A stretch of 62,000 bases of DNA from Zygnema cylindricum (lineage: Eukaryota > Streptophyta > Zygnematophyceae > Zygnematales > Zygnemataceae). The notes beneath the pieces are model-generated. The model worked only from the letters and a program-made list of their open reading frames with translations, was not told the origin of the DNA and did not search any database. The stretch's first letter is position 1, and each line of letters starts with the position of its first letter. This document shows positions 5,514-61,250 of the stretch, one piece after another. Position numbers and translations under genes: made by a program. The stretch covers positions 1-62,000 of the forward strand of contig JBBHKE010003160.1 of the NCBI GenBank assembly GCA_037447655.1, given 5' to 3'.

Positions 5514-6298
5514 TGAAATTATGTGGTCTCCATTGTCCCACAGAATGAGCAGCCTATGCAAAGCCTGTAGGATAATATTTTGCCCCTTCCACTTTCTCAC
5601 TAAACAGGTGCTTCCCAAGCACACCAAAACTCTGACCACCCTCACCCTTGTGAGAATAAGACTCCCCTAAGTCAAACGCAAAAAGAATCACTGATTTTGC
5701 TCCCCTGAGCAGATAAATTCAAAAGGTCACCTGGAGAGTGGCGCCTCAAACACGCTAAGTCCCTAAACTCCTACTCACAGCTACCTACTACTGTACCCTT
5801 GACTTATCAAAAGAGTGTATAGTATACGAAGGTATAGTGGCCGATTGTACTTTTTGTACGACCATTGTACAACATGTCCTTTTGGTTGACACTTGTCAAC
5901 CAGGGAGCCATCGTTCCTCCTCCCATTTTTTCCTGCGTCCAACGATGTGGCGCCAAGTGGCACAGCGCGCCGCTATGTCTGAAAGCCGCCAAAGATTCAC
6001 TCGGGTTTGGCGGCGGCGATGACATCCGTCCGATCGTATATTTTACACGGTAAGATTCGCGTCTGCGAGCGCCGTTGTCTATATGTGTTGTTGCGTCAAG
6101 TTGGTTCGTTTAAGTGAAAGTGACCTTGACTCGACGTTTTAAATAAATACCGAACCACATACGTGTATCGTTTCGTTAACGCCTTAATGGATAAGGCGTA
6201 CGTCTACATTTGTAGGCCACAGACGAATGATCATGTCCGGTCCAGACAACATTTTGGGCATCTTTCAGTCTGTCTGCCTATGTGGGCAGTCATAGTGA

Positions 6299-6379
<81 letters not shown>

Positions 6380-6420
6380 TACAGGTCTAAATAAAGGGAA
6401 TATTAATACTTTTTTCAACA
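5514..6420 (-). repeat. Copia element A, left LTR (3' LTR), 907 bp
   Basis: It begins TGAAATTATG and ends TTTCAACA. It matches the LTR at 10,611-11,609 over roughly its first 640 bp, including the GTAC-rich core near 5,848-5,880, and then diverges completely. The non-matching portion contains a tRNA-Arg-like D-arm (6,181-6,197), followed by a CT microsatellite (6,299-6,374). The bases next to it on the outside (GAGGG) are not repeated on the far side of the right LTR. Confidence 0.8.
6299..6374. repeat. CT microsatellite in the LTR of element A
   Basis: About 75 bases of nearly pure (CT)n. Absent from the partner LTR at 10,611-11,609, whose sequence differs altogether in this part. Confidence 0.95.
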
Positions 6421-9400
6421 CTCCTTAATTTTTGAAAGCTTTTATTTAAGTCACATTTTTCCTAATAAATCACCTTAGGGGGAGGCACTGTTTTGTCATC
6501 ATGTCTGCAATCATCTCTTGTCACTTTTGTGAACCAATTTAATTATTTTATTCTCAACCTTTCTTTGACAAAGCGGTTGTCATGTTTAGGAAGTGTTTTG
6601 GTTAGTTGCGATAGAGATAGGGCAGTTATCAAGACATTATGAGTCGGTTCATGAACTAAGTTTTCGATACGATTTTACCCACATCAATTCTTTGGTCTTT
6701 TAACCATGGACTCAGCCTCCATAATGGAATGAGCAACTACTTTCTGTTGTTTTCTACTCCAATAGCATGCACCAGATCCAATTTGTAACACATATCCAGT
6801 TGTACATCATCTTAAAGGCACATCTCCATAACTGGCATCACCCCAAGTGGTGATGTCAGTGTGCTCCCCTCCTAAATGTAACCAAAATTTCCTTATTCCC
6901 ACCAAATATCTTATCACTCTTTTGGCTGCTTCCTAGTCTCTTTTTCTGGGTTCATTTAGACTTCTACTGAGAATACCTACAGTTGCAGCTATGTCCGGAC
7001 GTGTAAAGTTCTTAAAGTAAATTAAGCTTCCTACAATTTGTCGATAAGGAATTCCTTCTATAAACCTCTTTTCTTTCTTATCCATCTCATCATTCAAAAT
7101 CAATATCCCTCCCTCTCCACTCCCCTCCGATACTTTTTTCAGATCCATGGTACTGGTACACCCATTTGCTTTTCCATTTAAAACTTTTCTAGCATAATAC
7201 CGATAGCTTCTTTCAGAGTGAGTCTTATAGTTTTATTCCCTCAATCCCTCTCCATTTGAATCCCCAAAATGTATTTTGCTTCGCTGAGATCTTATATGTT
7301 CCATTGTCGCGGGGCTTGTTTAAGGCTATAAAGTTATTTTATCAGTTTGAATACCTTGCTTTCTTCTCCACTTTCCACGAATCCTTTCGTTTGCCTCATC
7401 TAGATCTCTTCTTCAAACTCTCTGTGTAAAAAAGCGGTTTTGATATCCATTTGATGTATTTCCATATCCTCTTCTGCGGCTAAAATTAAGAGGATTCTGA
7501 CTGAGGGAAATCTGACTACAGGTGCAAAGGTTTTTTCATAGTCTATTCCTGCTTTCTGAGTATTACCTTTAACAACCAACCTAGCTTTATATCTTTCAAT
7601 GGTATTATATGGGTTTAGTTTAAGTTTAAAAACCCATTTACATCCAATCGGTTTTCTGTTCGGTGGACAATCTACCAACTCCCATTTATTGGCTTCCATG
7701 AGAGAGGCCATTTTTTCATTGATGGCACTGATCCATCGGCTGCTTTTTGGGGTATTTATGGCCTCTAAGTATGTTTGAGGTTATTTTGGGTGAGACATCT
7801 TTGTGAGTTTGTTTTTTACATGTCTTTTTTGAAGTCGTTTACTACTTTTTTTTTCCTTCTTCAAAATCTGACGCCGGTATGGAAGGCATCCTCGGGTTTC
7901 GTTTAAGAAGATTTTCATCACCCCTATCTTTTCAATTCTGGTGTTTGATCAAGTTCCTTGTCGGTTTCCACTTCGTATTGTGGTGATATCTCGGATGTTT
8001 TCCTTTCGTCCTTCTCTTTTGACACAACTGCAGATTTTTCTTTCTCCCCTTCTTCTTTCTCTTCATTTCCAAAGTCAAAGTCAAAATACTGACCCGATTC
8101 AAATCTGATTTTGACTTCTTTGCTATATTTGAATGGATCAATAGCCTTTACCTCATTCATCCCCAGTATGTGTTTTACCAAAATGATATCTCTATTTTTC
8201 AAGTCATACACTCGATATCCTTTTGTGCTCTTATCATATCTTTCAAGATATTTTGGTTTCCCTCTTCCCTCTAACTTCCATTTAGTCTAATCAGAATCCA
8301 AACTGTGTATTTGACTTCCGAACACTCTCAATCTAGACAAATCTGGTTTTCTTCCAGCACGCCTCTCATACGGAGTTTCCTCCTTATTTGCTGAAGTTAG
8401 GACTCTATTTCTGATGAAGTTAGCATAGTTCATAGACTCTGCCCAAAACTGCAAACGTATCCTTTTATCAGTTAGCATAATTTTGGACATATCTCCTAAA
8501 GTTATATTTACTCGTTCCGCTACTCCATTCTGTTCTGGATTATAAGGAATTGTTTTCTCATGATGGATTCCTTCTTCTTTTAAAAATTCTTCAAATTTCA
8601 ATGAGGTGTATTCTTTTCCATTATCACTTTTATCTCTTTTATTGAGGTTTCATGTAATTTTTCACCCCATACATTGAATTTTTTGAAACATCTTAGTATC
8701 TCCGACTTATGTCTAAGAAAGTATACCTTGGTGTATCTAGACCAATCATCTGTAATGGTTAGCATCCATCTTTTCCCCCAATGTGAAGCATGCCTAGCTG
8801 GTCCCCAAACATCAGTGTGAACAAGATATAACACTTCCTCTCTTCTAAATGTGGATGCCTTTGGGAATGGGAGTGTATGAATCTTCCCTTAGGCACATCC
8901 ACTACAATCATCTAAGATCTCATCAACTCAAAACTCAATTCCATTCACTATTCCCTTTTTCTTCATTTTCTTTAATCTATCTAGATGCACATGACCCAAC
9001 CTCTTGTGCCAAAGCATCATATCACTTTCACACGAGTAGAGAACACTCTTTTCATTGCAAATTACAATTCTAACCATTCCTTGACTACCTTTTACAACTA
9101 TGAAATGAACCTCATTATCAAAGCTAGTAGTGAATAGTCCTTTCTTAGTTCATGTTTCGAACTCTTTTTCATCTAAAACAGCCGTAAACACTAGATTCTT
9201 GCTACGCTTTGGAGTTTAAAAAACATATGAGAGTGTTAAAATTGAAGCCTTTCCATCAACTAGAATTTTTAAACCAACCGATCTAGCAAAACTTGTGGTT
9301 TACACTCTACCCTCTCCGTACTATATCTCAACTGTTGGAATTTTCCTCAATTTAGTAAACCACTTCTTATCCTTGCAAATATGCATTGAGGCCCCCGAGT

Positions 9401-10610
9401 CTATGGTCCACCTATCCTCAGGTGGATCCCTCTTACCTCCAAAAGCACACTTCTGTCACTTTGGAATGTCGGCATGCTTCTCAGATGTTTTCGGATTACG
9501 GAAAAGCTTCTCAAGCTCCTCTTCTGGTTTGGTTACTTCATCTTCTTCCTCGTCATGAACTTGAGTCATAAAAGCCTTTTTCTTTCCTCCATCTCTTAAG
9601 GAATCTTGTCCATATTTTAGTCAAATATCTGCAAGTTTGACACAATTTGCGATATAATGTCCCGGTTTCTTGTAGAAGTGACATAGTCCACCTTGGGGAG
9701 CTCCTCTCCCCTCTCGGTCAAATCTATTACCTTTTTCTCCTCCTTCTCCAAAGTTTTGATAGGGATCCTTTCCCTTTTCCTCATCACGCTTCCGCCAATC
9801 AGATCCTAGAGCCAATGCTTCAACACTCGGATTTCCTCTCCTAAGTTCTAAGGTACTATCCTTTACTAAAATCTCCCCATTGTATTATCCCAATTCCAAT
9901 TGCTATCATGTAGATCTTGCAACCGATTAATGATATTCTCATACTCTTCATGTAGCTTCATTATCAATGTATCTACTCTTTGTCCCACAGACCATGAGTT
10001 ATGTGCGCTCTCTAGTTCTCCAAATAATGCTCCTAAGTCAATGCAATAATCATCCATATTCCTCCCTTGGAAGTATAAGTTGGAATCTTATTTTCTGCCA
10101 GTTAATGCTGTTGCAATGACCCACTCCTATATTTGTTTAAAAGAGATACCCAAATCTGAGAGGAAGATCTAACATGCATAAGGGGAATGGCAATACCGTT
10201 CACTACACTATTGAGAATTATGTGCTTAACAACCTTGTCTTTATAGTTCCAATTTTCATTTTTTGAGCGTTCGGTCTGACTCCCTATCACCATTGCTAGT
10301 GGTGCTTGTGCCAGTATCGTCCTCGACAATGGAGTCCCTCGAGAAGCAACTCCTCCCTTTTATCCTTCTATGATTATTTCCTCCCCTTCCTCGTCATCGT
10401 TCATGATGGTGGCTAATGTTTTGGAAGATGTTGTGACGGAGGTGCCACAAAAACATGTTCCTTCAAACCCAGGTGGAGGTGGGCATCAAATTTGCCCATA
10501 AACTATGCCTTAGAGGTGCTTTTCAAAAAGTTCCCCCTCTATCATCATTTCTTAATAAAAAAAAGTCTAATCCATTGTCTATGGGCACCCTAGAGGGTGG
10601 GCCCATAACT
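6421..10610 (-). pseudogene. Copia element A internal region: gag-pol, decayed
   Basis: Minus-strand Ty1/copia polyprotein in the order gag, PR, IN, RT, RNase H. Gag runs from about 10,600 to 9,600 and ends in a zinc knuckle near 9,650-9,700 in which one cysteine is replaced by tyrosine ('CHFYKKPGHYIANC'). The protease motif is degraded near 9,390-9,420. Integrase is at 8,834-8,287, with 'NPEQNGVAERVN' close to the catalytic Glu. RT fingers are at 7,711-7,400 ('KPIGCKWVFKLKLNPYNTIE', then 'MDIKTAFLH'). Near 7,300-7,330 the reading jumps from 'LKQAPRQWN' to 'AKYILGIQ', so the YVDD active site is deleted. RNase H is at about 6,930-6,440. Several stops and shifts are present; it is not an intact coding sequence. 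Confidence 0.85.
10599..10610 (-). promoter_or_regulatory. Primer-binding site of element A (half tRNA-iMet type)
   Basis: The plus strand here reads GGGCCCATAACT directly against the LTR end at 10,611. That is the sense sequence of the anticodon arm of eukaryotic initiator tRNA-Met (GGGCCCAUAACC), so in element orientation it is a complementary primer-binding site with one mismatch at the end. The same 12-mer, with zero or one mismatch, sits at the same place in elements C, D, E and F. Confidence 0.7.
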
Positions 10611-11609
10611 TGAAATTTTGTGGTTTCCATTATCCCATAGAATGAGCAGCCTATGTAAAGCCTATAGGATAATATTTACCCCTTCCACTTTCCTGCTGAA
10701 AAGGTGCTGCCACCGCACACAAATACTTTGACCACCCTCACCACTGTGAGGTAAAGACTCCCTTGAGTCAAATCCAAAAAAAATCACTAAATTTGCTCCC
10801 CTGAGCAGTAAGTTATGGCTGGCAAAAGATGGCATAGAAATACAAAAGGTCACCTGGAGAGTGGCGCCTCAAACACGCTAAGTCCCTAAACTCCTACTCA
10901 AAGCAGCCTACTATTGTACCCTAGACCAATCAAAAGAGTGTATAGTATAAGAAGGTACAGTGCCCTGTTGTACTTATTGTACGTCCATAATACAACATGG
11001 TTTTTTGGTTGACACTTGTCAGCTTGGAAGCCATCCTTCCTTCTCCCGTCTTTTCGGCTTCCAATGATATGGCGCCACGTGGCACAACGGGCACTTATGT
11101 GCGAAAGTCGCCAAAGATTCACTCGGTTTTGGCGGCGGTGACGACGTCTGTCCGATCATATATTTTACACGATTAGATTCAGGTTCGCGAAAGTCGTTGT
11201 CTATATGTGTTATTTCGTCAATTTAGATTGTTTGAGTGAAAGTGGTGTTGAGTGATGTTTTGAATAAATATTGTACTGCAATTCCGTGTCCCCCATTTGA
11301 CTACTGAATTCACGAAGCCTCTTGGCAATTTTTGACTAACCCACTTTCAACTGAGACCAGTGCTACCCAAGCAGGCAAATAGACAATTTCGAATCCTACC
11401 GAACTCACATTTAGTTGAGAGTGACTTATGTCACTCTTTAGTCCTGCTTATGAAGCTGAGGCAGCCATGGCTCCACCACACTCTCTTTCTTCCACTGACT
11501 ACAACAAGTATAGGGGCTAGAGAGAGAAGGTGGAGGCAGGCTGCCTTGTCCCTTTTGTTTTAATCTATTCAGACCTAGAAAATACCCCCTAAATCTAGTG
11601 ATTTCAACA
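10611..11609 (-). repeat. Copia LTR shared by elements A and B, 999 bp
   Basis: It begins TGAAATTTTG and ends TTTCAACA. On its left it abuts the primer-binding site of element A, so it acts as A's 5' LTR. On its right it abuts CTCCCATTATTTTCTAG, the polypurine-tract side of another Copia element (B), so it is also B's 3' LTR. It contains the common core: GTAC palindromes around 10,975-10,995, a CACGTG G-box near 11,073, and a B-box-like TTCGAATCC at 11,388-11,396. One LTR between two internal regions is what homologous recombination between two elements leaves behind. Confidence 0.75.
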
Positions 11610-12797
11610 CTCCCATTATTTTCTAGTCTAATTTTAATATTTTTTCTAATCCACACTTTTCTCTACAATATCTTAACTTGGGTGAGGGCACAGGTTTGGT
11701 CATCATATCAACCACCATTTCCCCATGAGCTCTATACACAAGATTCACTATTTTGTTTTCAATCTTTTCCCTCACAAAACTCAATCTTATATCCATATGT
11801 TTAGCCTTAAAATGGTGTTTTGGATTGGCTGCAATTAGAATGGCAACCTAATAATCACAAAACACTTCATGCACTCTCTCCTTCATATACCCTAGTTCTT
11901 GCAGCAAAGACTTGACCCACATCAACTCTTTCACAGCAGAACAATTTGCCATGTATCCAGCCTCCATTGTGGACTGCGCAACCACCTTTTGTTGCTTGCT
12001 ACTTTAACAGCAAGCACCTTCTCCCACAAACAACACATACCCAGAAGTGCATCTTTTCATAGTTGCATCCCTATAACGAGCATCACTCCAAGTAGTGATG
12101 CCAGTGTGCTCCCTTTCAAAATGCTACCATAAATCCCTGGTTTTTATCAAATATCTCATGACTCTTTTGGCTGCCTTCAGTCTCTCTTCCTAGGATAATT
12201 AAGACTCCTACTGAGGACTCCAACTGTTGCCGCTATGTTCGGCCTAGTACAATTCATAAAGTAGATTAAACTTTATACAACCTGCCTGTAAGGAATAAAC
12301 TTCATAAAATGTCTCTTCTCTGATCTCAGCTGATCATCTAAGACTATCACTCTTCCTTCTGCACTTCCATCACTTGTTATATTCAAGTCCATGGGGGTGG
12401 TACAACTGTTTGCCTTTTCCATTTGGAACTTCTCACGTATATTCCCTATAACTTCTTTCTGAGTAAGTTTGATAATCTTCTTCCCCCTATCTCTCTCCAT
12501 TTGAATTCTTAGAATGTATCTTGCCTCCACTAAATCGTTCATGTCAAATATGCTTCTAAGATCTTTCTTTAACTTATTGATCTTTTCCATAGACTTACTT
12601 AACACCAGCAAATCATCCACATAAATTGCAATAAAAATAACACCGTTCTCATCCTCAAACATATAAATAGAATGGCCATAACTGATCCGGATATATCCCA
12701 TACTAGTGAGAAACTCATCAAGTTTCTTATTCCAATGTCTGGGAGCTTGCTTCAGTCAATATAACGACTTTATGAATATTCAGACTTTGCTCTCCTC
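11610..12797 (-). pseudogene. Copia element B fragment: RNase H and end of RT
   Basis: Minus-strand remnant of a second Ty1/copia polyprotein. From high to low coordinates: 'LKQAPRHWNKKLDEFL' near 12,690-12,750, the RT active-site box 'FIAIYVDDLLVLSKS' at about 12,590-12,640, the connection region 'YILRIQMERDRGKKIIKLTQ', then RNase H to about 11,640 and the polypurine side at 11,610. It has scattered stops, for example two in the segment before LKQAP. The upstream part is cut off exactly where the LTR of element C begins and does not resume on C's other side. Confidence 0.8.
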
Positions 12798-13768
12798 TGT
12801 TGAATTTAAAAGGTTTTCTTATGTATTTTCTAGGTTTCTTAAGTAATCTAGAATGAGGAAGGAAAAGCTGAGGCAGCCTGCTTCTAACTTCTCTCTCTAG
12901 CCCCATACTTGTCGTAGTCACTGGAGGCTAGAGAAAAAGCTATGCTCCTCTTAGAATCAGAAGGCAGTCCTTTGTTAAACTTACCAAAAAGGTTAACGGA
13001 CCCATGATTCGATCCTGGTACCTACCTTCCATCTGAATAGACCATCGTCGTTACCATGTAGCCTAGCACTTGTGTCGAGGTATATAGGGAACGATAGCTA
13101 CTTAAATATGTACAAATAGGAAAGTTCATTTAACTGACGAACGGACCACAATCACATAGATATAGTTAGATAGAATCACATCTAAAAGTACTGCTTGTAT
13201 TTTAACGACTATAAACTAAGGCCGGACGACGGAGAAAGAAGCCGCCATCGCGAAATAGACGTTTTGGCGGTTTGCGGCCCCAGCCACACCGGATGACACG
13301 TGGCAATATTACATTGGATAGCGGCATCATCGGGACATACCATGGCGAACTTGGAAATGGCGACGTCACCTTTTTGGCCATGTCGTACACTGGCCGTACA
13401 GAAAGTACTCAAGGCCAAGTACCTTTCTCTACTGTACACTTAATTAATTGGCTCCGTACTTTAGTAGTAGAGAGATAAGAGAGGGGTACAGGACTAAGAA
13501 AATGTTAGGGTAGCAGCCTCTCTCCCATAGTGCTTCTGTATAAAAGGTCATCTTTGACCATTGATAATTTACTGCTCAGGGGAGCAAATTCAAGGATTCT
13601 TTTTGTGGCAGACTCAAGGGAGTCACCTCTACCAAGGGGTGCAGTTTGGTCAGTCTGTATTATGTCAGGGTTCAACAATATTCAGACAAAGCTTGAACAA
13701 CTGAGGTTATTCTAGAGGCTTCTAGCAAGCTGCCTACTCTGAGTACCAATGGAGGTCTCAGAGTTGCA
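12798..13768 (+). repeat. Copia element C, 5' LTR, 971 bp
   Basis: Starts TGTTGAATTT and ends GAGTTGCA. A TATAAAAGG box lies at about 13,540. The GTAC-rich core and a CACGTG-containing G-box lie near 13,300-13,430, and a tRNA T-arm-like hairpin on the minus strand is at 13,002-13,018. It matches the LTR at 22,889-23,883 along its length with scattered differences. The gag ATG used by this family (13,749) lies within the last 20 bases of the LTR. Confidence 0.85.
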
Positions 13769-14034
13769 GGTTATGGGCTCACCCTCTAGGGTGCCCATAT
13801 TCAATGGGACTGGGTTCATCTACTGGGAGAGTATGATGATGGGAGCCCTATGTGAGGAAAGATTTTGGGAAATAGTGAGTGGGCGAGTAAAGTGCCTATC
13901 CGGTCCTGCTATTCCTCCAGGGTTTGGAGGAAGCAGATTTGGTAGGAAACCAGATCCACCGTCATCAGAGGACTCAGAAGACGGAGAAAGTATCGTGATG
14001 GAAAAAGGGAAAGAAAAAGAGAAAACCACATCTA
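13749..14034 (+). pseudogene. Gag N-terminus of element C, cut by the assembly gap
   Basis: Opens with 'MEVSELQVMGSPSRVPIFNG' and continues 'TGFIYWESMMMGALCEERFW', the Copia gag N-terminal region seen also in elements D and E. The start codon is in the LTR and the frame crosses the primer-binding site. The frame stays open to the run of ten N. The last 120 or so bases before the gap occur again in a diverged version at 14,284-14,445, so the gag sequence is duplicated across the gap. Confidence 0.75.
13769..13780 (+). promoter_or_regulatory. Primer-binding site of element C, inside the gag frame
   Basis: GGTTATGGGCTC begins right at the LTR end and is complementary, with one mismatch, to the anticodon arm of initiator tRNA-Met. 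The gag frame that starts at 13,749 in the LTR runs through it and encodes the residues VMG of the N-terminus. A primer site that is both internal to the tRNA and coding is unusual for plant Copia elements, which normally use the tRNA 3' end. Confidence 0.7.
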
Positions 14035-14283: not shown

Positions 14284-15922
14284 GTGAGTGGGCGAGTAAA
14301 GCGCCCATCTAGTCCTGCTATTCCTCCATGGTTTGGAGGAAGTAGATTTGGTAGGAAACCAGATCCACCGTCATCACAGGACTTAGAAGACAGAGAAAGC
14401 ATCGTGATGGAAAAGGGGAAAGAAAAAGAGAAAACCACACCTATAGCAACCGGATTTGCTTTCATGTCTCCTATTCTAGGAATGAGGAGAATGACATCGA
14501 TACCTGGGACTACAACAACATGGCGGCCAAGCATTTGGTTCTCCCTCATATCACACAAGGACTCGCAGGTACTCATTTGCAGATGGAAAAGGCATTCGAT
14601 CTGTGGGATGCGCTTATAGAGATATACCGAAGCGGTAGTATTCAGGAATAGAAACTAACGGATGAAAGGATCAATGGATATTTTCACAAAAGAGAGAAGA
14701 TGCTCGATTTTTGCAATGAGCTGGCTATACTCTTCATGGAGCTAGAGTGTGCCGGAAAAGTAGATACCGAGAAGGCAAAGATACATTGCTTACTCATGAA
14801 ACTACCCGATGAGTATGAGAACATTGTGAACCGGGTACAGGATCTGCCGGACTCCAGGTGGATATGGAATTCGGTAGCTGGTATGATTCTTGTCCGAGAG
14901 AATACAATCGAAATCGAAGGGGAGTTAACAATGGACACGCCTTGACGGCCGAAGCAAGTTGGAGAAACAAAGATTCACGGAAACCCCTTGGAAGTCATGA
15001 AGGGGAAGACTTCAAAAGTCAATCCCATGAGTTTGGAACAAGGGGACCAAAGGGGCTTTGTCATTTTTGCAAGAAACCCGGCCATTACATGGCAGAATGT
15101 ACCAAACTGACCGAGCTTCGGATAAAAGAGGGAAAGATCGGGGGTCAGCCACGAGGGATGAAAAAGGCATTTGTCACACAGGTACTCGAGGAGGAATCCG
15201 ATGAGGAGGACGACAAACTTCTTTTGGATGAGGAGTTGGAGGCGAAGACAGAAGTCGAAATTCCACGAAAGCAGAAATGTGCTTTCGGTGGACTGAAAGG
15301 TGAAGGAGGTTGGATTGTGGATTCAGGTGCCTCCATGCATCTGTGCAAGGATAAGAATTTGTTCACTAAGCTGAGAAAGATTCCTACAGTAGAGATTGAA
15401 TATGGGGATAGGAGGGTGGTTACCACTACTTATGCAAGATCGGTTGATCTGAAAGCTGTATTTGAGGGAAAAATCTCAATAGTTACGTTCTCCGATGTTT
15501 TATTTATTCCGGAGTTAAACAAAAACCTTATCTTTACATCTGTTTTAGATGATAAAGGATTTGAAACTAGCACCAGAAAAGGAGCTAGCTTTGAGGAAGA
15601 TGTGTACTTCACTGCTGAGAAAGTTAGCCAAGGAATTTTCAGGCTTGCTTTAAGTAATGAAAAACTCAAACTTTACTATGCTGTTGTGATTGATATTATG
15701 TTGTGGCATAAGAGACTAGGGCATGTGAATCTAGAAAAGCTAAAAGGAATGAAAAAGATGGGAGTAGTTGAAGGGATACGCTTTGGGGAAAATGATAATC
15801 TATGTGATTGCAGTGGGTGTGCTCAGGGTAAAACACACAATCTACCGTTTCCAAAGGAAGCAACTTATAAAGGAGAAAAAGTCCTTGATTTGGTACACAC
15901 GGACATTAGGGGATAGGCAAGA
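14284..15922 (+). pseudogene. Element C gag, zinc knuckle, protease and GAG-pre-integrase
   Basis: Gag continues in pieces to about 14,945. A long open stretch, 14,858-15,916, then carries a CCHC zinc knuckle ('CHFCKKPGHYMAEC', C-x2-C-x4-H-x4-C), the aspartic protease motif in 'WIVDSGASMHLC', and the GAG-pre-integrase domain with 'MLWHKRLGHVNLEKLKGM' and a C-x2-C pair ('CDCSGCAQGK'). The sequence just before the knuckle needs a frame change from the gag pieces. A TAG follows 'VHTDIRG' and cuts the frame before integrase. Confidence 0.85.
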
Positions 15923-18173: not shown

Positions 18174-18178
18174 GCTGA

Positions 18179-19369
18179 TGAAACTCTGAGACCTCCATTG
18201 GCCCTCAGAGTAAGCAGATCCAAAAAGAAGCTTATCTAGATAGTGCCGACTCCAAGTTGATATAAACCCAAATGACTAACCCCTTGAAAATCATAACCCA
18301 AATACAGATTCACCCCTGTGAAATAACACTTTCTCTGTGGTCAGTTCCACCACAGAATGCAAAGTTAGAATATGAGATTTGGACACATTCACCCACTTTG
18401 ACTTTCCCTTAGAAATACCGCCTCTTTGGCAGACAAAAACTATGATTGACTACACCCCTGTGTAGCTTGGACTCCCCTAAGTCCGCAGCAAAAAGAATCA
18501 CTGAAAATGGTCAAGTAAATTGATAGTTATGGCTGGCCAAAGTTTGCCATTTATACAAGGTGCTCTCTAGGAGAGGCAGCTACTTACCCAAAATTTTCTA
18601 AGTCCTATTCCCTCTCTAAAACTCTTTCTACTCAAGTACGGCACCAATCAAATTAGTGTGTCGTACACAAATGTACAGGTGCCGATGTACTTTTTGTACG
18701 GCCATTGTACAACATGGCCAAAATGTCGCACGTGTCATAGCCGGATTTGTTACCGCAATCTTCGGAGTCGCCGCAATCCAACATTGTAGCGCCACGTGTC
18801 ACATGACGTGGCGATGACTAAAAAATGCCAAAAGTACATAATCCGTGATCGCGGCGCCTATCGTGGTCGTCGGATCAAACGGGATAAAATTGTAGCCGTT
18901 GAAATTATAAGTGCGATTTTTGTTTCGCGTTCGAAACAAATGCGCGGTATCTGTTTCATAAAATAAATTAAATCGTACTCCGTACTATACAAAATTGTAT
19001 CTATGCATTTCGTATCTATTTCCGTTAGACGAACTAGTCTACGTGTACAAATATAAATATCTGTCAAACCTATTGTACTCTAGCACTGTATTTAGACTTG
19101 TTGGTTAAAGCGGACGGCTAGTTTGACGGACGGCAGGTACCAGGATTAAATCCTGGGTCCGTCACACCTTTTAGATAACTCTATTAAGAATTGCCTTCCT
19201 GTCCACTTTGGACAGCCTAGGTAGCCATGGATCTAACCCCTCTTCAAGTCTTAAGTGGTTGCGACAAGTGTGGGGACTTGAGTGAAGAGTTAGAGGTAGG
19301 TTGTCAGTGTCCCCTTTTTGCCTTTTTATTTTACAATCTCTAGACCTAGAAAAAACTTAAATTTCAACA
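18179..19369 (-). repeat. Element D left LTR (3' LTR)
   Basis: Begins TGAAACTCTG and ends TTTCAACA next to ACTCCCTTTATTTT, the polypurine side. It contains the GTAC core (about 18,685-18,720), a CCACGTGTCAC G-box (about 18,790) and a tRNA-like minihelix at 19,125-19,163: GACGGAC pairs with GTCCGTC, and inside it CCAGG pairs with CCTGG around a 7-base loop. Confidence 0.85.
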
Positions 19370-19407
19370 CTCCCTTTATTTTTTAGTCTACTTACTTTCA
19401 ACTCCCA

Positions 19408-21000: not shown

Positions 21001-21003
21001 CTA

Positions 21004-21349
21004 TATATTTCTGTCATTTTCTTCAGTTTTAATCCCTACATGAGGTACCATAGCTGAGAGCCTAGCTCCCCTCACCATAGGTGTCCCTTTTTCCTTCTCC
21101 CTTATTTCCCCATCCACGGAAAGATTTTTCCCTTCACCTTCCGTTGCATCTGAACTCCGGTTGATATTCTGGGCAGCCTCTGGTAAATCTCCATAGTAAG
21201 CTCCTCCAAAGCCAAGTGGCAGACATCTCACTTGTCCCGCAACAATTCCCCAAAAGTGCTTCTCGAAAAGCAATCCCTCCAATGTAAACGCCCAATAAGT
21301 GAAGCCTGTTCCATCAAACATAGTCACCCTAGATGGTGGGCCCATAACC
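21004..21349 (-). CDS. Element D Gag N-terminal segment
   Basis: Open frame reading 'MGPPSRVTMFDGTGFTYWAF' from 21,345, in frame with the Gag-RNase H ORF and separated from it by a single TAG at 21,001-21,003. In elements C and E the gag start lies upstream in the LTR; here that upstream start is cut off by a TAG just before the primer-binding site, so translation would have to begin at this internal Met or read through. Element F has a TAG at the same place as the 21,001 stop. Confidence 0.6.
21338..21349 (-). promoter_or_regulatory. Primer-binding site of element D
   Basis: Plus strand GGGCCCATAACC lies directly against the LTR end at 21,350 and is a perfect 12-base match to the sense anticodon-arm sequence of initiator tRNA-Met. 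In element orientation it is therefore the complement, a half-tRNA primer site. Confidence 0.75.
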
Positions 21350-22539
21350 TAAAACTCTGAGACCTTCATTGGCCCTCAGAGTAAGCAGATCCAAAAAGAA
21401 ACTTATATAGAGAGTGCCGACTCCAAGTTGATATAAACCAAAATGACTGACCCCTTGACAATCAGAACCCAAATATAGATTCACCCCTATAAAATAACAC
21501 TTACTGTGTGGTCAATTCCGCCACAGAATGCAAAGTTAGGAATATGAGATTTGGACACATTCACCCACTTTGTCTTTCCCTTAGAAATACCGCCACCCTG
21601 GCAGACAAAAACTCTTACTGACTACAACCCTGTGTAGCTTGGACCCCACTGAGTCCGCAGCAAAAAGAATCACTGAAAATGGTCAAGTAAATTGATAGTT
21701 ATGGCTAGCCAAAGTTTGCCATCTATACAAGGTGCTCTCTAGGAGAGGCAGCTAAGTCCTATTTTCTAAGTCCTATTTCCCTCTCTAAAACTCTTTCTAC
21801 TCAAGTACGGCACCAATCAAATTAGTGTGTCGTACAGAAATGTACAGGTGCCGGTGTACTTTTTGTACGGCCATTGTACAACATGGCCAAAATGTCGACA
21901 CGTGTCATAGCCGGATTTGTTACCACAATCTCCGGAGTGGCCGCAATCCAACATTGTCCCGCCATGTGTCACATGACGTGGCGATGACTAAAAAATGCCA
22001 AAAGTACATAATCCGTGATCGCGGCGCCTATCGTGGCTGTCCGATCAAACTAGATACAATTATAGCCGTTGAAAAAATATGTGCGATATTTGTTTCGCGT
22101 TCGAAACAAATGCGCGGTATCCGTTTCATAAAATACATTAAATCGGACTCCGTACTATACAAAACTGTATCTATGCATTTCGTATCTATTTCCGTTAGAC
22201 GAACTAGTCTACGTGTACAAATATAAATATTTGTCAAACCTATTGTACTCTAGCACTGTACTTAGACTTGTTGGTTAAAGCGAACGGCTAGTTTGACGGA
22301 CGGCAGGTACCAGGATCAAATCCTGGGTCCGTCACACCTTTTAGATAACTCTATTAAGAATTGCCTTCCTGTCCACTTTGGACAGCCTAGGCAGCCATGG
22401 ATCTAACCCCTCTTCAAGTCTTCAGTGACTGCAACAAGTGTGGGGACTTGAGTGAAGAGTTAGAGGTAGGTTGTCAGTGTCCCCTTTTTGACTTTTTATT
22501 TTACAATCTCTAGACCTAGAAAATACTTAAATTTCAATA
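21350..22539 (-). repeat. Element D right LTR (5' LTR)
   Basis: Near-identical partner of 18,179-19,369, starting TAAAACTCTG (G to A in the terminal TG) and ending TTTCAATA (C to T in the terminal CA). The tRNA-like minihelix is kept at 22,295-22,333 with loop ATCAAAT. The few differences from the left LTR suggest a fairly recent insertion. Confidence 0.85.
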
Positions 22540-22544
22540 GCTGA

Positions 22545-22888: not shown

Positions 22889-23883
22889 TGAAATTAAAAG
22901 GTTTTTTTATTTATTTTCTAGGTTTCTTAAGTAATCTAAAATCAGGAAGGAAAAGCACGACAGCCTGCTTCTAAATTCTTTCTCTAGCCCCATACTTGTC
23001 GTAGTCACTAGAGGTTGGAGAAGAAGCTAGAGCCATGGCTGCCTATGCTCCTCCTAGAATCACAAGGCATTCCTCTGTTAAAATTAACGAAAAGGTTAAC
23101 GTACCCAGGATCCGATCCTGGTACCTATCGTCCATCTGAATAGACTAGCGTCGTTTACCATGTAGCCTAGCACCTGTGTCGAGGTATATAGGGTATAATA
23201 GCTACTTAAAGATGTACAAATAGGAAAGTTCATTTAACTAACAAACGGACCACAATCACATTGATATAGTTAGATAGAATCACATCTAAAAGTACTGCTT
23301 GTATTTTAACGGCTATAAACTAAGGCTGATATCAATCGAACAACGGAGAAAGAATTCGACATCGCGGAATGGACATTTTGGCGGTTTACGGCCCCAGCTA
23401 TGAAAGATGACACGTGGCAACATTAAATTGAAAAGCGGTATCTCCAGGACATACCATGGCGAACCCGGAAGTGGCAGGGTCACCTTCTTGGCCATGTCGT
23501 ACATTGGCCGTACAGAAAGTACTCCGGGCTAAGTACCTTTCTGTACTGTACACTTAATTGATTGGCTCCGTTCTTTAGTAGTAGAGGGATAAGAGAGGTC
23601 TTCAGGACTTAGAAAATATTAGGGTAGTAGCCTCTCTCCCAGAGTGCTTCTCTATAAAAGGTCATCTTTGACCACTGATAATTTACTGCTCAGGGGGGCA
23701 AATTCAACGATTCGTTTTGTGGTAGACTCAAGGGAGTCAACTCCTCCAAGGGGTGCAGTTTGGTTAGTCTGTATTGTGTCAGGGTGTCAGCAATATTCAG
23801 ACAACGCCTAAACAACCGAGGTTATCCTATAGGCTTCTACCAAGCTGCCTACTCTGAGTACCAATGGAGGTCTCAGAGTTGCA
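22889..23883 (+). repeat. Copia element C, 3' LTR, 995 bp
   Basis: Begins TGAAATTAAAAGG and ends GAGTTGCA, aligned to the 5' LTR at 12,798-13,768. The tRNA T-arm-like hairpin is perfect here (CCAGG and CCTGG around a 7-base loop at 23,105-23,121, minus strand). The five bases after it (CTTCC) do not match the five before the 5' LTR (TCCTC), so no target duplication supports the two LTRs as one insertion. Confidence 0.8.
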
Positions 23884-24717: not shown

Positions 24718-25717
24718 TGTAATTTTGTTTTCTCCATTGGACCACATAATACAGGAAGCCTCTAGATAGTATTTAACTAACCCACTTCAAGCCACAACCA
24801 GTGTTGTCCAAAAAGGCACACTGACAGTTTGAATGCACCCCTGTGCAGCTTGGACTCCCCTCAGTCCGTAGCAAAAAGAATCACAAAAAACGGCCAGCCA
24901 GCCGATAAGTTATGAGGCAGTAAAAATGCCAATTTGTACAATCTCTCAAAGGGATAGGTGACTACCTACCAAAATTTTCTAAGTCCTGATTCCCTCTAAT
25001 AACTTCTATCTACTGAAGTACAGACCAATCACATTACCATACCATACCAAAAAGTACTATTGTCGTGGTACCTTTTGTACGGCCTATGTACGACAAGTCT
25101 ATTAAGTGGACGCGTGTCCGCTTTTCACTTGTTCGTACGTTCCTCGGAATTCTCATGACCGAATGTCATATCTCCACGTGACTCTAGGTCATGCCACCCC
25201 ATAAAAATCCAACTTGACCTTTCTGAGATCTCGACAAAAACGTAAAATGTTGGATAAGAACCGACATTATATATCGTCCATCGAAACAAATATCACATTC
25301 ATTTGTTTCGTGCGGGATCCAGTCCGCACTGAATTTAACCTGATCTATGATGTTACATTTACATTTCCGTTAATCGGTTTAGGGGACGTAACATAATTAA
25401 AATATCAATCGCACCCTATATACTCTAGCGAACATCTACGACATACTGGTTAGAGCAGACGGCTACGCCACGCTCTACCGGTCGCGGGTTCCAGTCTTGC
25501 TCGACTCAACCTTTTTGTAGAGAGTGACTTAAGGTCACTCTCTAACCCTGTCTATGGAGCTGAGGCAGCCATGGCTCCATCACTCTCTCTCTCTTTTTAA
25601 GTGACTACAACAAGTATGGGGGTAAGAGAGAAGAGATGAAGACAAGTTGCCTACATGTTTCTTTTTTCGCTAATATCTTAAGACCTTGAAAATAACCAAA
25701 AGCTATTTATTTCAACA
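24718..25717 (-). repeat. Lone Copia LTR, 1,000 bp
   Basis: Starts TGTAATTTTG and ends TTTCAACA. It shares the family core: GTACCTTTTGTACGG near 25,070, a CCACGTG box near 25,175 and the conserved end region near 25,565-25,620. It carries the most complete tRNA-like segment seen here: an A-box-like ACTGGTTAGAGCAGACGG at 25,445-25,462 and a B-box/T-arm-like GCGGGTTCCAGTCTTGC at 25,484-25,500. It is followed by TCCCCCTCAATGG, which reads on the minus strand as a polypurine tract, so it may be the 3' LTR of an element whose rest is lost. No 5-bp duplication is seen. Confidence 0.75.
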
Positions 25718-30053: not shown

Positions 30054-31022
30054 TGTAATTCTGTGACCTCCATTCGTACACAGAATGTCCAGCTTATGTG
30101 AAGCCTCTAGGATATTATATGCAATTTTGACTTTGACAATGAATAAGTCCCACCCTGGGACGCAAAATCTCCGACCAACTACACCTGTGTGTAGCCTAGA
30201 CTCCCTTGAGTCCGCAACAAAAAAAATCACTAAATTTGCTCACCTGAGCATTAAGTTATGGTTGACAAAAGTTGGTCCATAAATACAAGTGCACTCTGGG
30301 AGAGAGGCTGGAAAACCAAAAATATTCTAAGTCCTAAGCTACCTCTCTAAGCCTATTACTAAGGTACTTCGACCAATCATAAGATTTTAAAGTAGAAGAA
30401 GGTACAGGTACCGCTGTACTTCTTGTACGGCCATAGTACGGCATGGCCGTTCCGCTGACGCGTGTCAGTTCCGGAGCCGTAGTTGCTCCTCCGTGATATC
30501 CGCTGTTCAATCATATGTTGCCACGTGTCATCCACCGACATCTGGTTCGCAAACCATCGAATGGCTATTCCGGTATTCCGGCTTCACTGTGAGCCGTTCG
30601 ATGAGATCTAGACATTTGATTTCGTCCGTCGAAATTAAATGTTAATTCGTATATTTCGTGTGGTCCCGATTTCGTGCGGACCGGTATGTTTCCATACATC
30701 AATCGTCCCGTAATTAGTTAAATGAAATGTCCGGCGCGGTATAGCTTTAAATAAATATCGCGCTATATGTATGTATCGATTTCTTCAAGACTTACTTGAT
30801 AAGGTGCACGGTTGGTCCGTACGGTGATCATCTAGAGGTCACTGGATCAAGTCCCACAAAAAGCAGTATATATTTTGCAAAAATATTGTCTTGAATGATC
30901 TGCCTGTCTCCTTTAGTTGCAGCAGGCAGCCATGGTTGTATGCAGGTCCTCGGTGAATACGACAAGTATGAGGGCTGTAGTAAGTCCAGAAGAAAGACTA
31001 CAAAATACCTCTCTTTTCAACA
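30054..31022 (-). repeat. Element E left LTR (3' LTR), 969 bp
   Basis: Starts TGTAATTCTG and ends TTTCAACA. GTAC core near 30,416-30,440, CCACGTGTCAT box near 30,522, D-arm-like ACTTGATAAGGTGC near 30,793 and B-box-like GGATCAAGTCC at 30,844-30,854, read antisense to the element. Confidence 0.9.
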
Positions 31023-33230: not shown

Positions 33231-33251
33231 ATCTAAAACCTTTTCACCCTT

Positions 33252-34988: not shown

Positions 34989-35939
34989 TGGTACACAGAA
35001 TGTCCAGCTTATGTGAAGCCTCTAGGATAGTATATGCACTTTTGACTTTGACAATGAATACGTCCCACCCTGGGACACAAAATCTCTCACCAACTACACC
35101 CCTGTGTAGCCTGGACTCCCGTGAGTCCGCAGCAAAAAGAAATCACTAAATTTGCTCACCTGAGCATTAAGTTATGGCTGACCAAAGTTGGTCCATAAAT
35201 ACAAGTGCACTCTGGGAGAGAGGCTGGAAAACCAAAAATATTCTAAGTCTTAAGCTACCTCTCTAAGCCTACTACTAAGGTACTTGGACCAATCATAAGA
35301 CTGTAAAGTACAAGAAGGTACAGGTACCGCTGTACTTCTTGTACGGCCATAGTACAGCATGGCCGTTCCGTTGACGCGTGTCATTTTCGGAGCCGTAGTT
35401 GCTCCTCCCGTGATATCCGCTGTTCAACCATATGTTGCCACGTGTCATCCACCGACATCTGGTCCGCAAACCACCAAATGGCTATTTCGGTATTCCGGCT
35501 CCACTGTGAGCCGTTCGATGAGATCTAGACATTTGATTTCGTCCGTCGAAATTAAATGTTAATTCGTATATTTCGTGTGGTCCCGATTTCGTGCGGACCG
35601 GTATGTTTCCATGCATAAATCGTCCCGTAATTAGTTAAATGAAATGTCCGGCGCGGTATAGCTTTAAATAAATATCGCGCTATATGTATGTATCGATTTC
35701 TTCAAGACTTACTGGATAAGGTGCACGGTTGGTCCGTACGGTGATCATCCAGAGGTCACTGTATCAAGTCCCACAAAGAGCAGTATATATTTTGCAAAAA
35801 AACTGTCCTGAATGATCTGCTTGTCTCCTTTAGCTGCAGCAGGTAGCCATGGCTGTATGCAGGTCCTCAGTGACTACGACAAGTATGAGGGTTACAGTAA
35901 GTCCACAAGAAAGACTACAAAATACATCTCTTTTCAACA
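34969..35939 (-). repeat. Element E right LTR (5' LTR), 971 bp
   Basis: Partner of 30,054-31,022. The gag initiator ATG pair (34,983-34,988 on the minus strand) lies within it. Its last part (from 35,843) is included in a 338-bp tandem duplication. Confidence 0.9.
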
Positions 35940-36520
35940 ATTTACTCCAACTCCTCTCAGAGGTCGACATTCAAGTGGATGAAACTAGTCATGACGAAGA
36001 ATTAGAGGAAACTGTGATTTTGAGGCACTTTATAGAGAGGTGGTTTAATTAGGAAGGTGATAAAATGGATATTGAGCGTTTACAAAAAAAATTAATTATG
36101 GTGTGGATTTATTTGCCTTTTTTTGTTGTTTTTTTTTTATAGGTTGATATTTTTTCTTTTCTTTGACTGCAGTATGTAGTATAGCCATGGCTGTATGCAG
36201 GTCCTCAGTGACTACGACAAGTATGAGGGTTACAGTAAGTCCACAAGAAAGACTACAAAATACATCTCTTTTCAACAATTTACTCCAACTCCTCTCAGAG
36301 GTCGACATTCAAGTGGATGAAACTAGTCATGACGAAGAATTAGAGGAAACTGTGATTTTGAGGCACTTTATAGAGAGGTGGTTTAATTAGGAAGGTGATA
36401 AAATGGATATTGAGCGTTTACAAAAAAAATTAATTATGGTGTGGATTTATTTGCCTTTTTTTGTTGTTTTTTTTTTATAGGTTGATATTTTTTCTTTTCT
36501 TTGACTGCAGTATGTAGTAT
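35843..36520. repeat. 338-bp tandem duplication across the LTR-pogo junction
   Basis: The sequence from about 35,845 (AGCCATGGCTGTATGCAGG) to 36,182 is repeated without visible change from 36,183 to about 36,520. Each copy holds the last 95 bases of the LTR of element E, the ATTTA target site and about 240 bases of the pogo-like end. The duplication therefore occurred after element E inserted. The breakpoints share only TA or TAGCC. Confidence 0.9.
35945..36051 (+). pseudogene. End of the pogo-like transposase frame
   Basis: On the far side of element E an open frame reads 'LLQLLSEVDIQVDETSHDEE', then 'TVILRHFIERWFN' and TAG. It continues the host transposon sequence broken at 30,053, but in a different frame from 'CHLLRLAHG' on the left, so either a frameshift lies near the junction or the upstream frame is the other one. 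A second copy lies in the tandem duplication at 36,283-36,389. Confidence 0.5.
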
Positions 36521-36681
36521 ACATTGTATTTTTTTCTTTGACATTGAATATTATATATCCCTCTTTGTTTGTTTGTTTTCACATTTTGTCTGCGCAAGTT
36601 GAATGGCCAAAACAATGGATGAAATGTATTTGTAGTGATGGTGTAAAAACGCATCCTAAATTGGAGTATCATGCTGCCTTT

Positions 36682-56883: not shown

Positions 56884-58065
56884 TGTAATTCTATGGGCTC
56901 CATTGCCACACAGAATTCACAGGTCCAAAGAAGCTTATCTAGATAGTGCCGACTCCAAGTTGATAAAAACCCAAATGACTGACACCCTGAAAGTGAAAAC
57001 CCCAATACAGCTTCACCTCCGTGAAATAATACTTTCTGTGTGCTCAGCTCCACCACAGAAAGCAAAGTTAGAATATGAGTTTTAGACACATTCACCCACT
57101 TTGACTTTCCCTTAGAAATGTAGCCACGCTGGCAAGCAAAAACTCTAACCAACTACACCCCTATGTAGCTTAGACTCCATTGAGTCCACAGCAAAAAGAA
57201 TCACTGAAAATGGTCCCCTGAATGAGTTGTAATTAAATGGCAAAGTTTGCCTATTTATACAGGTGCTCTGTGGAAGAGAGGCGATTACCAACCAAAATTA
57301 TTCTAAGTCCTAAAACCCCTCTCTAAGCCCCCAAGTACTAAGGTACGGACCAATCGTAAGATTGTACCGTACAAGAAAGTACAGGTAACAGCGTACTTTC
57401 TTTACGATCCATGAACGACATCGCCATAATATGATATTTGTCACATCTGGAATTGTATCATCGCGTTTTGGAGATCTCGCGATCCTCTCGGATATTGCCA
57501 CGTGTTATTCAGAGTGGCGGTGTCCGAAAACGCCATGTTGCCCGCTCCAAAATCTCGGCTCGCACCATGACCTTTCGATGAAGACCGACATTTAAAGTTG
57601 GTTGTCTAAATAATTGCACGGTATTTGTTTCACATTTGAAACAAATGCGCGATATCCGTTTCGAGATAATCCGTAGTCCGTACAATACAAGTTGTATCTA
57701 TATTTTACTATCGCGTTAAATGAATTAGTCTAAATGTCTGTTTATATATTTATCGTACCCTATATGTCGTGGCATTGGTCATAGAATACATGATAAAGCT
57801 ATCGGTTATGGATTCTTGACGGACGGCAGGTACCTGGATCAAGTCCTAGGTCCGTCAAGATAATTTTGGTAAACCTACCAAGTACTTCATCTTGTCTCTC
57901 TGTGTGGGCGACATGGGCAGCTATGGCTCTGGCTTCCTCTCCAACCTTCAAAGACTATGACATCTGTGGGGGTTTGGAGAGTGGTGCGAGAGGCAGGCTG
58001 CTTTTGTTGACTTCTTCTTATTGGTTTTCCTTTATTCAGACCTAGAAAATACATATATTTCAACA
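56884..58065 (-). repeat. Element F left LTR (3' LTR)
   Basis: Starts TGTAATTCTATG and ends TTTCAACA. It contains the common core and, at 57,815-57,859, a perfect 10-bp stem (CTTGACGGAC with GTCCGTCAAG) enclosing GGCAGGTA and a B-box-like GGATCAAGTCC. Confidence 0.85.
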
Positions 58066-58101
58066 CTCCCCTTATTTTCTAGTCTACTTTCCTTTCAGCT
58101 A

Positions 58102-59596: not shown

Positions 59597-59599
59597 TAG

Positions 59600-60065
59600 T
59601 ATTTCCCAAATTTATAAAGACTTGGTTAGATTTAAAAGAGTGATAGCTATGGACTTAGACACATTTCTAAGTATGAGATGTTTTGCTATAGTGTTTTTAT
59701 AATCCTAATTTTTTTTGTCATTTTCTTCAGTTTTGGGTTCGGTTATAATCCCCACAAGTTGAACCGTAGCCGAGAGCCTAGCTCCCCTCACCATTGGTGT
59801 CCCTTTATCCTTCTCCACTTTTCCCCCTTCCATGGTTATGATTTTCCCTTCACCTTTCGTTGCATCTGAACTGCGGTTGGTTTTCTGGGAAGCCCCAGAT
59901 GAATCTCCAAAGTGAGTTCAACCAAGGCCGAATGGCAGACACCTCACTTGTCCCGAGACAATTCCCCATAAGTGCTTTTTGAAAAGCAATCCCTTCATCG
60001 TGAATTCCTAATAAGTGAAGTCTGTTCCATCAAACATAGGCACCCTAGATGGTGGGCCCATAACC
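59600..60065 (-). pseudogene. Element F Gag N-terminus and primer-binding site
   Basis: GGGCCCATAACC at 60,054-60,065 is the half-tRNA primer site next to the LTR. The gag N-terminus follows with stops (one in place of Trp in 'FTYW'), and carries a TAG just before 'DYKNTIAKHLIL', at the same place as the TAG at 21,001-21,003 in element D. An insertion near 59,620-59,635 adds another stop. Confidence 0.7.
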
Positions 60066-61250
60066 TGTAATTACGTGGGCTCTTTTGCCAAACAAAATTC
60101 GCAGGTCCAAATAAGCTTATCTAGATAGTGCCGACTCCAAGTTGATTCAAACCCAAATGACTGACACCCTGAAAGTCAAAACACCAATACAGCTTCACCC
60201 TTGTAAAATAATACTTTCTGTGTGCTCAGTTCCACCACAGAATGGAAAGTTAGAATATGAGTTTTGGACACATTCACCCACTTTAACTTTCCCTTAGAAA
60301 TGCAGCCACTGTGGCAAGCAAAAACTCTAACCGACTACACCCTTGTGTAGCTTATACTCCTTTGAGTCTGCAAAAAAAAGAATCACTGAAAATGGTCCAC
60401 AGAGTGAGTTGTAATTAAATGGCAAAGTTTGCCTATTTATACAAGTGCTCTGTAGGAGAGAGGCGGCTACCTACCAAAATTATTCTAAGTTCCAAAACCC
60501 CTCTCTAAGCCCCCTAGTAGTAAGGTACACACCAATTGTAAGGCTGTACTGTATAAGAAAGTATAGGTATCGTCGTACTTTTTGTACGGTCCATGTACGA
60601 CATTGCCATAATGTGACAATTGTCACCTTTGGAATTATCATCTCGTGTTCCGGAGATCTCGCGATCCTCCCGGATTTTTGCCACGTGTTATCTGCGGTGG
60701 CGGTGCCCGAAAACGCCAAGTCACCCACTTTTGATTCTTTGCTTACACCACGGTTCTTCGATGGAGACCGACATTTAAAATTGGCCGTCTAAATAATTGT
60801 GCGATATTTGTTTCACATTTGAAACAAATGCGCAATATCCGTTTTGAGATAATCCGTAGTCCGTACAATACAAACTGTATCTATGTCTTACTATCCCGTT
60901 AAATGAATTAGTCTAAATGTTCCTGTTTATATATTTATCGTACCCTATATGTCGTAGCATTGGTCCTAGATTACAGGATAAAGCTATCGGCTATGGATTA
61001 TTTACGGACGGCAGGTACTAGGATCAAGTCCTGGGTCCGTCAAGATAATTTTGGTAAACCTACCAAATACTTTAGCCTGTCTCTTTGTGTGGGTAGCATG
61101 GGCATCCACTGCTCTGGCTTCCTCTCCAACCTTCAGTGATTGCGACAAGTGTGGGGGTTTGGAGAGTGGTGCGAGAGGCAGGCTGCCTTTGCTGACTTCC
61201 TCTTATTGATTTTCCTTTATTCAAACCTAGAAAATACATATATTTCAACA
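60066..61250 (-). repeat. Element F right LTR (5' LTR)
   Basis: Partner of 56,884-58,065. Here the tRNA-like stem is shorter (ACGGAC at 61,004-61,009 with GTCCGT at 61,035-61,040) but the T-arm-like CTAGG/CCTGG stem with loop ATCAAGT is better preserved. Confidence 0.85.

Follow-up and report, generated by a model that had tools for sequence, protein, structure and literature searches.

The stretch analysed here, referred to as the window, comprises 62,000 nucleotides of contig JBBHKE010003160.1 from the Zygnema cylindricum assembly GCA_037447655.1 (352.8 Mb), and contains Copia-type retrotransposons (A to F) nested in one another. Pairs of long terminal repeats (LTRs) were defined by self-comparison, the partners being 80-94% identical, and the LTRs of elements C to F measure 0.97-1.19 kb; a lone LTR represents a further family, G. 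Pfam domains mark element C on the + strand (Pol beta-barrel and pre-integrase domains at 14858-15916), element E on the − strand (Copia gag, Pol beta-barrel, pre-integrase and an SH3-like domain at 32255-34988) and element D, with a Copia gag on the − strand. No Pfam domain was found in the single frame tested of element F, and its orientation was therefore taken from its LTRs and primer-binding site (PBS). The U3 regions of these LTRs carry, on the strand opposite to the element, a short module composed of an A-box-like sequence, a B box and a T-run, which appears to be derived from a tRNA and to retain the layout of an RNA polymerase III (Pol III) promoter. The LTRs of D and E serve as examples of the host repeats:

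18181-19367, − strand: left LTR of D, paired with 21352-22537
30054-31022, − strand: left LTR of E, paired with 34969-35939

An earlier note on this DNA, made from the letters alone, had placed a B-box/T-arm-like block in every Copia LTR of the window and always on the strand opposite to the element, and such blocks are indeed found where it had put them. The A and B boxes have a known consensus and are recognized by the transcription factor TFIIIC. In a joint scan, an A box, a B box and four consecutive T (T4) at tRNA-gene spacing were scored against dinucleotide shuffles of each LTR. A significant antisense unit was detected in nine of the eleven window LTRs (p 0.005-0.040); the left LTR of A and the right LTR of B do not reach significance. 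On the sense strand none of the eleven is significant (minimum p 0.109). The antisense strand holds for every LTR that has the boxes, although the reversed orientation of element C does not count as independent evidence, since the module would have been inherited together with the LTR. In the window copies, the A box and B box are 36-69 nt apart, start to start, the T-run follows 14-18 nt past the B box, and the modules are 168-231 nt distant from the U3 edge:

19102-19172, + strand: module of the left LTR of D, with an A-box-like sequence at 19102-19113, a B box at 19143-19153 (9/10) and a T-run at 19169-19172
19125-19163, + strand: 39-nt acceptor- and T-arm-like unit of the left LTR of D, 12/12 pairs
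22272-22342, + strand: module of the right LTR of D, with an A-box-like sequence at 22272-22283, a B box at 22313-22323 (10/10) and a T-run at 22339-22342
22295-22333, + strand: 39-nt unit of the right LTR of D, 12/12 pairs, scoring 17.7 bits with the Rfam tRNA model, under the cut-off
25447-25516, + strand: module of the lone LTR (G), with a D-arm/A-box region at 25447-25462, a B box at 25487-25497 (8/10) and a T-run from 25512
30793-30876, + strand: module of the left LTR of E, with an A-box-like sequence at 30793-30804, a B box at 30844-30854 (10/10) and a T-run at 30873-30876
35710-35793, + strand: module of the right LTR of E, with an A-box-like sequence at 35710-35721, a B box at 35761-35771 (9/10) and a T-run at 35790-35793
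57818-57867, + strand: left LTR of F, with the 39-nt unit at 57818-57856 (10/12 pairs), a B box at 57836-57846 (10/10) and a T-run at 57864-57867
61003-61052, + strand: right LTR of F, with the 39-nt unit at 61003-61041 (11/12 pairs, one of them G-U), a B box at 61021-61031 (10/10) and a T-run at 61049-61052
12995-13033, − strand (element C on +): 39-nt unit of the left LTR of C, 10/12 pairs, two of them G-U, with a B box at 13005-13015 (9/10)
23098-23136, − strand: 39-nt unit of the right LTR of C, 11/12 pairs, two of them G-U, with a B box at 23108-23118 (9/10)
6183-6205, + strand: tRNA-Arg-like D-arm (A-box region) of the left LTR of A, no B box found
11386-11396, + strand: B-box-like sequence (8/10) of the right LTR of B, not above chance (p 0.607)

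The two units of D have exactly the anatomy ascribed to them before, with a 7-bp stem, an 8-nt linker, a 5-bp stem and a 7-nt loop, and the tRNA-Arg-like D-arm in the left LTR of A was likewise borne out (p 0.003 against plant tRNAs; 7.5 bits in a profile of host tRNAs). The block proposed at 11,388 in the right LTR of B was not confirmed: besides its box-scan value, it gives no match above the null in that profile. Across the window, modules make up five of the seven places that score at least 16 in the box scan. The pattern GGWTCRANTCC has four perfect occurrences on both window strands (22313, 30844, 57836 and 61021), all four of them antisense modules, with the reservation that A at position 3 of the B box was permitted only after the window had been inspected; the strict form GGTTCRANTCC has no perfect occurrence, and four of its ten nine-of-ten matches are modules.

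The layout extends to copies elsewhere in the same genome. A total of 125 U3 copies were compared (30 of D, 30 of F, 21 of G, 22 of E and 22 of C), nine of which are the window's own. The genomic loci used number 28 each for D and F, out of 40 near-full places each, while G, E and C contribute 20 out of 40 apiece; these are the nearest among at most 40 copies that were scored for each query from 559-11199 candidates, so the diversity of the families is under-sampled. One copy (L002) was left out, being 100% identical to the right LTR of D (L001). Some copies are the two LTRs of one element and one contig is a possible allele of the window; as the copies are related and partly paired, the figures are to be taken as counts, not as independent trials. 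A B box matching at least 9/10 is present antisense in 103 of the 125 copies (D 25/30, F 22/30, G 18/21, E 21/22, C 17/22) and sense in 0/125, and the T-run starts 14-18 nt past the B box in 115/125. The strict B-box pattern is perfect in 9/21 copies of G, some of which are more tRNA-like than the lone LTR of the window. The arrangement is that of a type-2 Pol III promoter, with A box, B box and T-run at tRNA-gene spacing, the A box being degenerate. Since the module occupies the same U3 position in all families, which is taken as shared descent, the constant antisense orientation is one inherited event, and not eleven or 125.

The tRNA origin of the module is indicated by comparison with a profile built from 25 tRNA genes of the same genome, with 1016 shuffled strands as the null. 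Antisense matches exceed the 99% null level in 22/22 copies of E, 21/21 of G and 9/30 of D, and in one of the two A/B modules, that of the left LTR of A; on the sense strand the level is exceeded in 0/127, with 1/127 (a G copy) above the 95% level. The best E and G copies are colinear with the profile across D-arm, variable loop and T-arm, over positions 11-71 in E and 16-69 in G, and another G copy aligns over positions 41-69 only. In a run over the whole window, the three top places are those in the left LTR of E (30830-30857), the left LTR of A (6183-6205) and the lone LTR (25447-25500), and modules, all of them antisense, are six of the top eight; single matches are weak in 124 kb of sequence, none being significant (best E-value 0.076). 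Against 24 plant tRNAs, the eleven window modules give antisense p values of 0.003-0.146, below 0.05 in 6/11, while the sense strand is not significant except in the lone LTR (p 0.003), where either strand resembles a tRNA. A genuine tRNA gene was rejected: ARAGORN called no tRNA, the Rfam tRNA model (RF00005) never reached its cut-off in the searches made (best 17.7 bits in the right LTR of D, against a cut-off of 29 bits), and no Rfam tRNA match was obtained among 14 copies of E, G and C. In the tRNA-derived heads of short interspersed elements (SINEs), A and B boxes outlive the cloverleaf. The profile matches together with the unreached Rfam cut-off mark the module as tRNA-derived, with the promoter parts kept and the cloverleaf lost, as in SINE heads and in the Helenus elements discussed below. 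The tRNA-like nature claimed in the earlier note thus stands for the origin, the antisense strand and the Pol III-like boxes with their T-run, on the strength of the host tRNAs and the 125 U3 copies, but not as a callable tRNA; its observation is partly confirmed and its interpretation partly supported.

Conservation of the module is most evident between families C, D and F. When net divergence was calculated over the compared U3 stretch as between-family minus within-family variation, the 39-nt unit emerged as the most conserved 39-nt segment of all (0.035 against a mean of 0.257, rank 1/270); for D and F alone it ranks 3/270. The three families agree at 37/39 positions against a background of 56%, and the conserved block opens with the first base of the 7-bp stem and stops no more than one base from its last. 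Over all five families, it is the B box that stands out, with a net divergence of 0.107 against 0.343 (rank 23/298).

The stem pairs were examined for compensation, which the earlier note had suggested as a test of the fold. In six window copies, those of C, D and F, standard pairs occupy 66/72 cells and no two-sided change is seen. In 82 copies there are 13 cells with two-sided changes, nine of which keep Watson-Crick pairing, against a mean of 6.9 in within-family shuffles that reach at least nine in 460/2000 cases. There is no evidence of compensation above chance, a fold proven by covariation was rejected, and the outcome speaks against a conserved RNA fold; as the copies are probably mostly decayed, this result does not decide the matter for active lineages. 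Folding energy z-scores of nine single stretches are -3.1 and -3.05 for D, -2.5 and -3.2 for F, -0.1 and -1.0 for C, -1.8 for the lone LTR, -2.5 for the left LTR of E and -2.6 for the left LTR of A. In the predicted fold of D, the acceptor-like pairing gives way to a palindromic CCAGGAT/ATCCTGG hairpin, and that of F holds the outer stem, whole in the left LTR and partially in the right. In the left LTR of E only 2/5 T-arm pairs are left while the B box is kept, and the E family as a whole keeps the B box and the T-run; such retention with a mostly lost T-arm stem is expected of a promoter and not of a fold.

The PBS is also related to a tRNA. It adjoins the 5′ LTR and corresponds to the anticodon arm of the initiator tRNA-Met (iMet) in 5/5 elements, with 0-1 mismatches in 15 nt:

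21335-21349, + strand: PBS of D on its tRNA-like strand, an exact 15 nt of the iMet anticodon arm, adjoining the 5′ LTR
60051-60065, + strand: PBS of F, 0 mismatches to the iMet anticodon arm
34954-34968: PBS of E, 1 mismatch to the iMet anticodon arm
10596-10610: PBS of B, 1 mismatch to the iMet anticodon arm
13769-13783, − strand: PBS of C, 1 mismatch to the iMet anticodon arm

The host genome has two iMet gene copies that are 100% identical to a 72-nt plant iMet query. In one copy of this Copia group (L147), iMet nt 1-39 are found with one mismatch between the internal region and the LTR, and this stretch is the trace of a primer, a 5′ half-tRNA, that was copied into DNA. Stretches of this kind were observed at three genomic places, covering iMet nt 1-39 in L147 and L148 (97%) and nt 8-39 in L149 (100%), and all end in ...CCCATAACC.

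Taken together, the module is rather probably a tRNA-derived Pol III promoter, of the kind bound by TFIIIC, that was captured antisense in an ancestral U3 and then kept. The homology to tRNAs, the antisense strand, the box layout and the between-family conservation are direct observations, to which a mechanism may be fitted. In an ancestral Copia element, a tRNA gene or a tRNA-derived SINE head would have been captured in reverse in U3, presumably once, and passed on to the descendants with the D-arm/A-box region, the B box and the T-run of a type-2 promoter retained. TFIIIC would occupy the B box and Pol III would produce a short antisense U3 RNA of perhaps 80-100 nt, ending at the T-run inside the LTR, beside the element's own sense promoter; both the binding and the transcription are predictions from the sequence. 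Selection would then keep the TFIIIC occupancy, the RNA or both, to some presumed benefit of the element.

Several observations weigh against this interpretation. A place outside the LTRs, at 55183 on the − strand, has a box score of 17, as high as D. The host-tRNA profile exceeds the 99% null in only 0/22 copies of C and 1/30 of F. The 39-nt segment ranks only 74/270 when all five families are compared, and the A-box half is degenerate, with a C/D/F net divergence of 0.41 at 22270-22289. Within families the module is no more conserved than its surroundings (rank 1073/1147 in D; divergence 0.169 against 0.141 in F and 0.083 against 0.081 in G). Finally, a pure B-box role leaves the near-invariant linker and outer stem of C, D and F unexplained. 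A promoter explains E and G best, whereas the sharp C/D/F block is accounted for only in part and could also be a minihelix or a palindrome bound by a protein.

The minihelix would be an extension of the same idea. Processing of minihelices by the tRNA 3′-end machinery is known, and the C/D/F unit could be a working one, with the acceptor stem stacked on the T-arm and 8 nt standing in for the D and anticodon arms, that forms the 3′ end of the antisense Pol III RNA and is trimmed to a stable, tRNA-tailed small RNA opposite U3. We regard this as distinctly unlikely; if true, a full-size retrotransposon would carry its own antisense, tRNA-tailed regulator. The palindrome, by comparison, would make the unit a DNA site of the RNA polymerase II (Pol II) promoter, with CCAGGATCAAATCCTGG in U3 binding a transcription factor and the tRNA resemblance being secondary. 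The unit does lie in U3 and, in the sense direction, precedes an AT-rich sequence that by eye is TATA-like, it is nearly palindromic, as reflected in the hairpin favoured by the predicted D fold, and conservation without covariation would fit a DNA site. Against a mere binding site stand the alignment of the best E and G copies, which is colinear with the tRNAs of the host over 54-61 profile positions, the B box and T-run kept in E after most of the T-arm stem was lost, and the outer stem contained in the predicted F fold, and we consider it unlikely.

Were the module a passive tRNA or SINE fossil, inherited with the LTR and functionless, neither reduced variation within families nor an excess of compensatory changes would be expected, and neither is seen; selection, on the other hand, is not expected to show in decayed copies, and a fossil hardly explains why the C/D/F module is far more conserved than the remaining U3 and why its limits coincide, to within one base, with those of the stem. 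Transitions in U3 copies are commonest at CHG in all five families (0.068-0.173, against 0.041-0.070 at CG and 0.016-0.061 at CHH; in D 0.072, 0.044 and 0.018, respectively), which suggests strong CHG methylation and, like the iMet genes, is read as plant-like; the GC-rich CHG/CG sites of the module would fit methylation-driven decay of dead copies. We hold a fossil to be very improbable. In LTR elements, RNAs that are packaged together commonly recombine, and if C, D and F had recently swapped a short piece of U3 in this way, their agreement in the unit would need no selection; yet the block stops at both stem ends and not at arbitrary points, and the B box and T-run are still common to E and G; such an exchange seems no more probable than a fossil.

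The iMet-related PBS raises a further alternative, namely a second PBS as in Ty3: the sense 3′ U3 RNA would pair with the T-arm of iMet while the anticodon arm of the same tRNA pairs with the PBS, so that the two ends of the RNA are held together. The uniform PBS and the two identical host iMet genes agree with this, the core of the right LTR of D matches iMet nt 40-72 at 24/33 positions, the only window sites with at least 21/33 are the six C/D/F cores, and Ty3 itself has such a U3 segment (PMC5371799). The complementarity is nevertheless broken, with longest perfect runs, by eye, of 8 nt in the right LTR of D and 11 nt in the left LTR of C, 22/33 is reached by one of six shuffled windows (one strand each), G carries an elongator-type T loop, and the primer, a 5′ half of iMet, does not include the T-arm. 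The broken complementarity and the different T loop of G place this reading lowest, as a most improbable one, and the interrupted 24/33 match rules out a Ty3-like segment as the principal explanation.

Some further features of the region were recorded. The first ~170 nt of U3 could form a long hairpin around a conserved CATACTTGTCGTAGTCACT and its variants in C, B, F, D and the lone LTR (12801-12960, 22889-23055, 11430-11612, 19205-19370, 57900-58066 and their partners); z-scores range from -4.0 to +1.7 in ten LTRs on both strands, and RNAalifold gave no consensus pairs for this U3 5′ end. The place at 55183 (−) comprises a B-box-like GGTTCGAATGC, a T-run and an A-box-like stretch 47 nt ahead of the B-box-like part. 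At the edge of the right LTR of E (35844-36521), a 340-bp stretch is repeated in tandem with 100% identity. Contig C2216 holds pieces of the D and C LTRs (115270-116455 and 116807-117118) that are 100% identical to those of the window, and it may be an uncollapsed allele of the window or a recent duplication. Viral contigs scanned with the core pattern yielded none, a scan of viral contigs with a Copia protein matched 19 stretches of which 0 were confirmed, and one protein search returned 2 proteins.

The module shares features with several known systems. Its A and B boxes outlast the cloverleaf as in tRNA-derived SINE heads (a property also mentioned in PMC10886601), but it is located inside an LTR, whereas those heads form the 5′ part of a SINE. 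The Copia lineages Osser, Bryco and part of Gymco-II likewise have a PBS for half of tRNA-Met, but the passages of PMC6317226 that treat them do not mention an antisense tRNA-like module. In the bipartite PBS of Ty3, as outlined in PMC5371799, U3 is related to initiator tRNA arms and complementary to them in the sense RNA; in Ty3, however, priming starts at the 3′ end of a complete tRNA, whereas the window elements would use a 5′ half, with broken complementarity. Cassandra, which the earlier note had considered the closest parallel, also carries a Pol III gene fragment in its LTRs, but the fragment is 5S and not tRNA, the element is small and non-coding, and its own transcription starts and ends in the 5S part, according to the summary in PMC10886601; Rfam detected no 5S match anywhere in the window.

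A closer parallel is Helenus (also TRIMp3; Kojima 2024), for which tRNA-derived sequence in LTRs is already documented. The main text of PMC10886601 describes such LTRs, with conserved boxes A and B, in terminal-repeat retrotransposons in miniature (TRIMs) of fungi, animals and Selaginella, and adds that a fair number of Repbase LTRs include sequence resembling part of a tRNA; PMC12859917 repeats the same Helenus summary. These elements are small (311-1263 bp) and non-autonomous, mostly without a predicted functional tRNA, thought to depend on Copia in most fungal cases, and the proposed role of their promoter is to drive transcription of the element itself (PMC10886601). It is further argued there that autonomous partners would need Pol II, which makes a long shared LTR stretch unlikely, and that a Pol III promoter in the LTR is unfit for long elements owing to the weak processivity of Pol III. 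The window families resemble Helenus in having tRNA-derived A and B boxes inside the LTR, the B box being strong and the A box degenerate here, and in a PBS for the anticodon part of iMet, as most fungal Helenus have a PBS that corresponds to a tRNA anticodon loop, chiefly that of iMet (PMC10886601). They differ in their ~1-kb LTRs, in the gag/pol domains of C and E, and in boxes that lie opposite to the element strand and are not placed to transcribe the element, a distinction that follows from the proposal in that paper (PMC10886601). By orientation, LTR length and coding capacity, the window families are not members of Helenus. The main text of PMC10886601 nowhere uses the word "antisense", and among the titles listed by searches of an open-licence library none concerns an antisense Pol III unit in LTRs.

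What was known before, as far as the main text of PMC10886601 goes, is therefore the tRNA-derived Pol III promoter in the LTRs of small non-autonomous elements; new here is its antisense copy in the ~1-kb LTRs of Copia families, some of which code for gag/pol. Antisense placement in a coding Copia element would avoid the problem of weak processivity, and it suggests another use, either as the source of a short antisense RNA or as a site where TFIIIC is bound beside the element's Pol II promoter. Such an arrangement would bear on LTR silencing and on self-regulation of the elements, and the module is a source of tRNA-like repeats.

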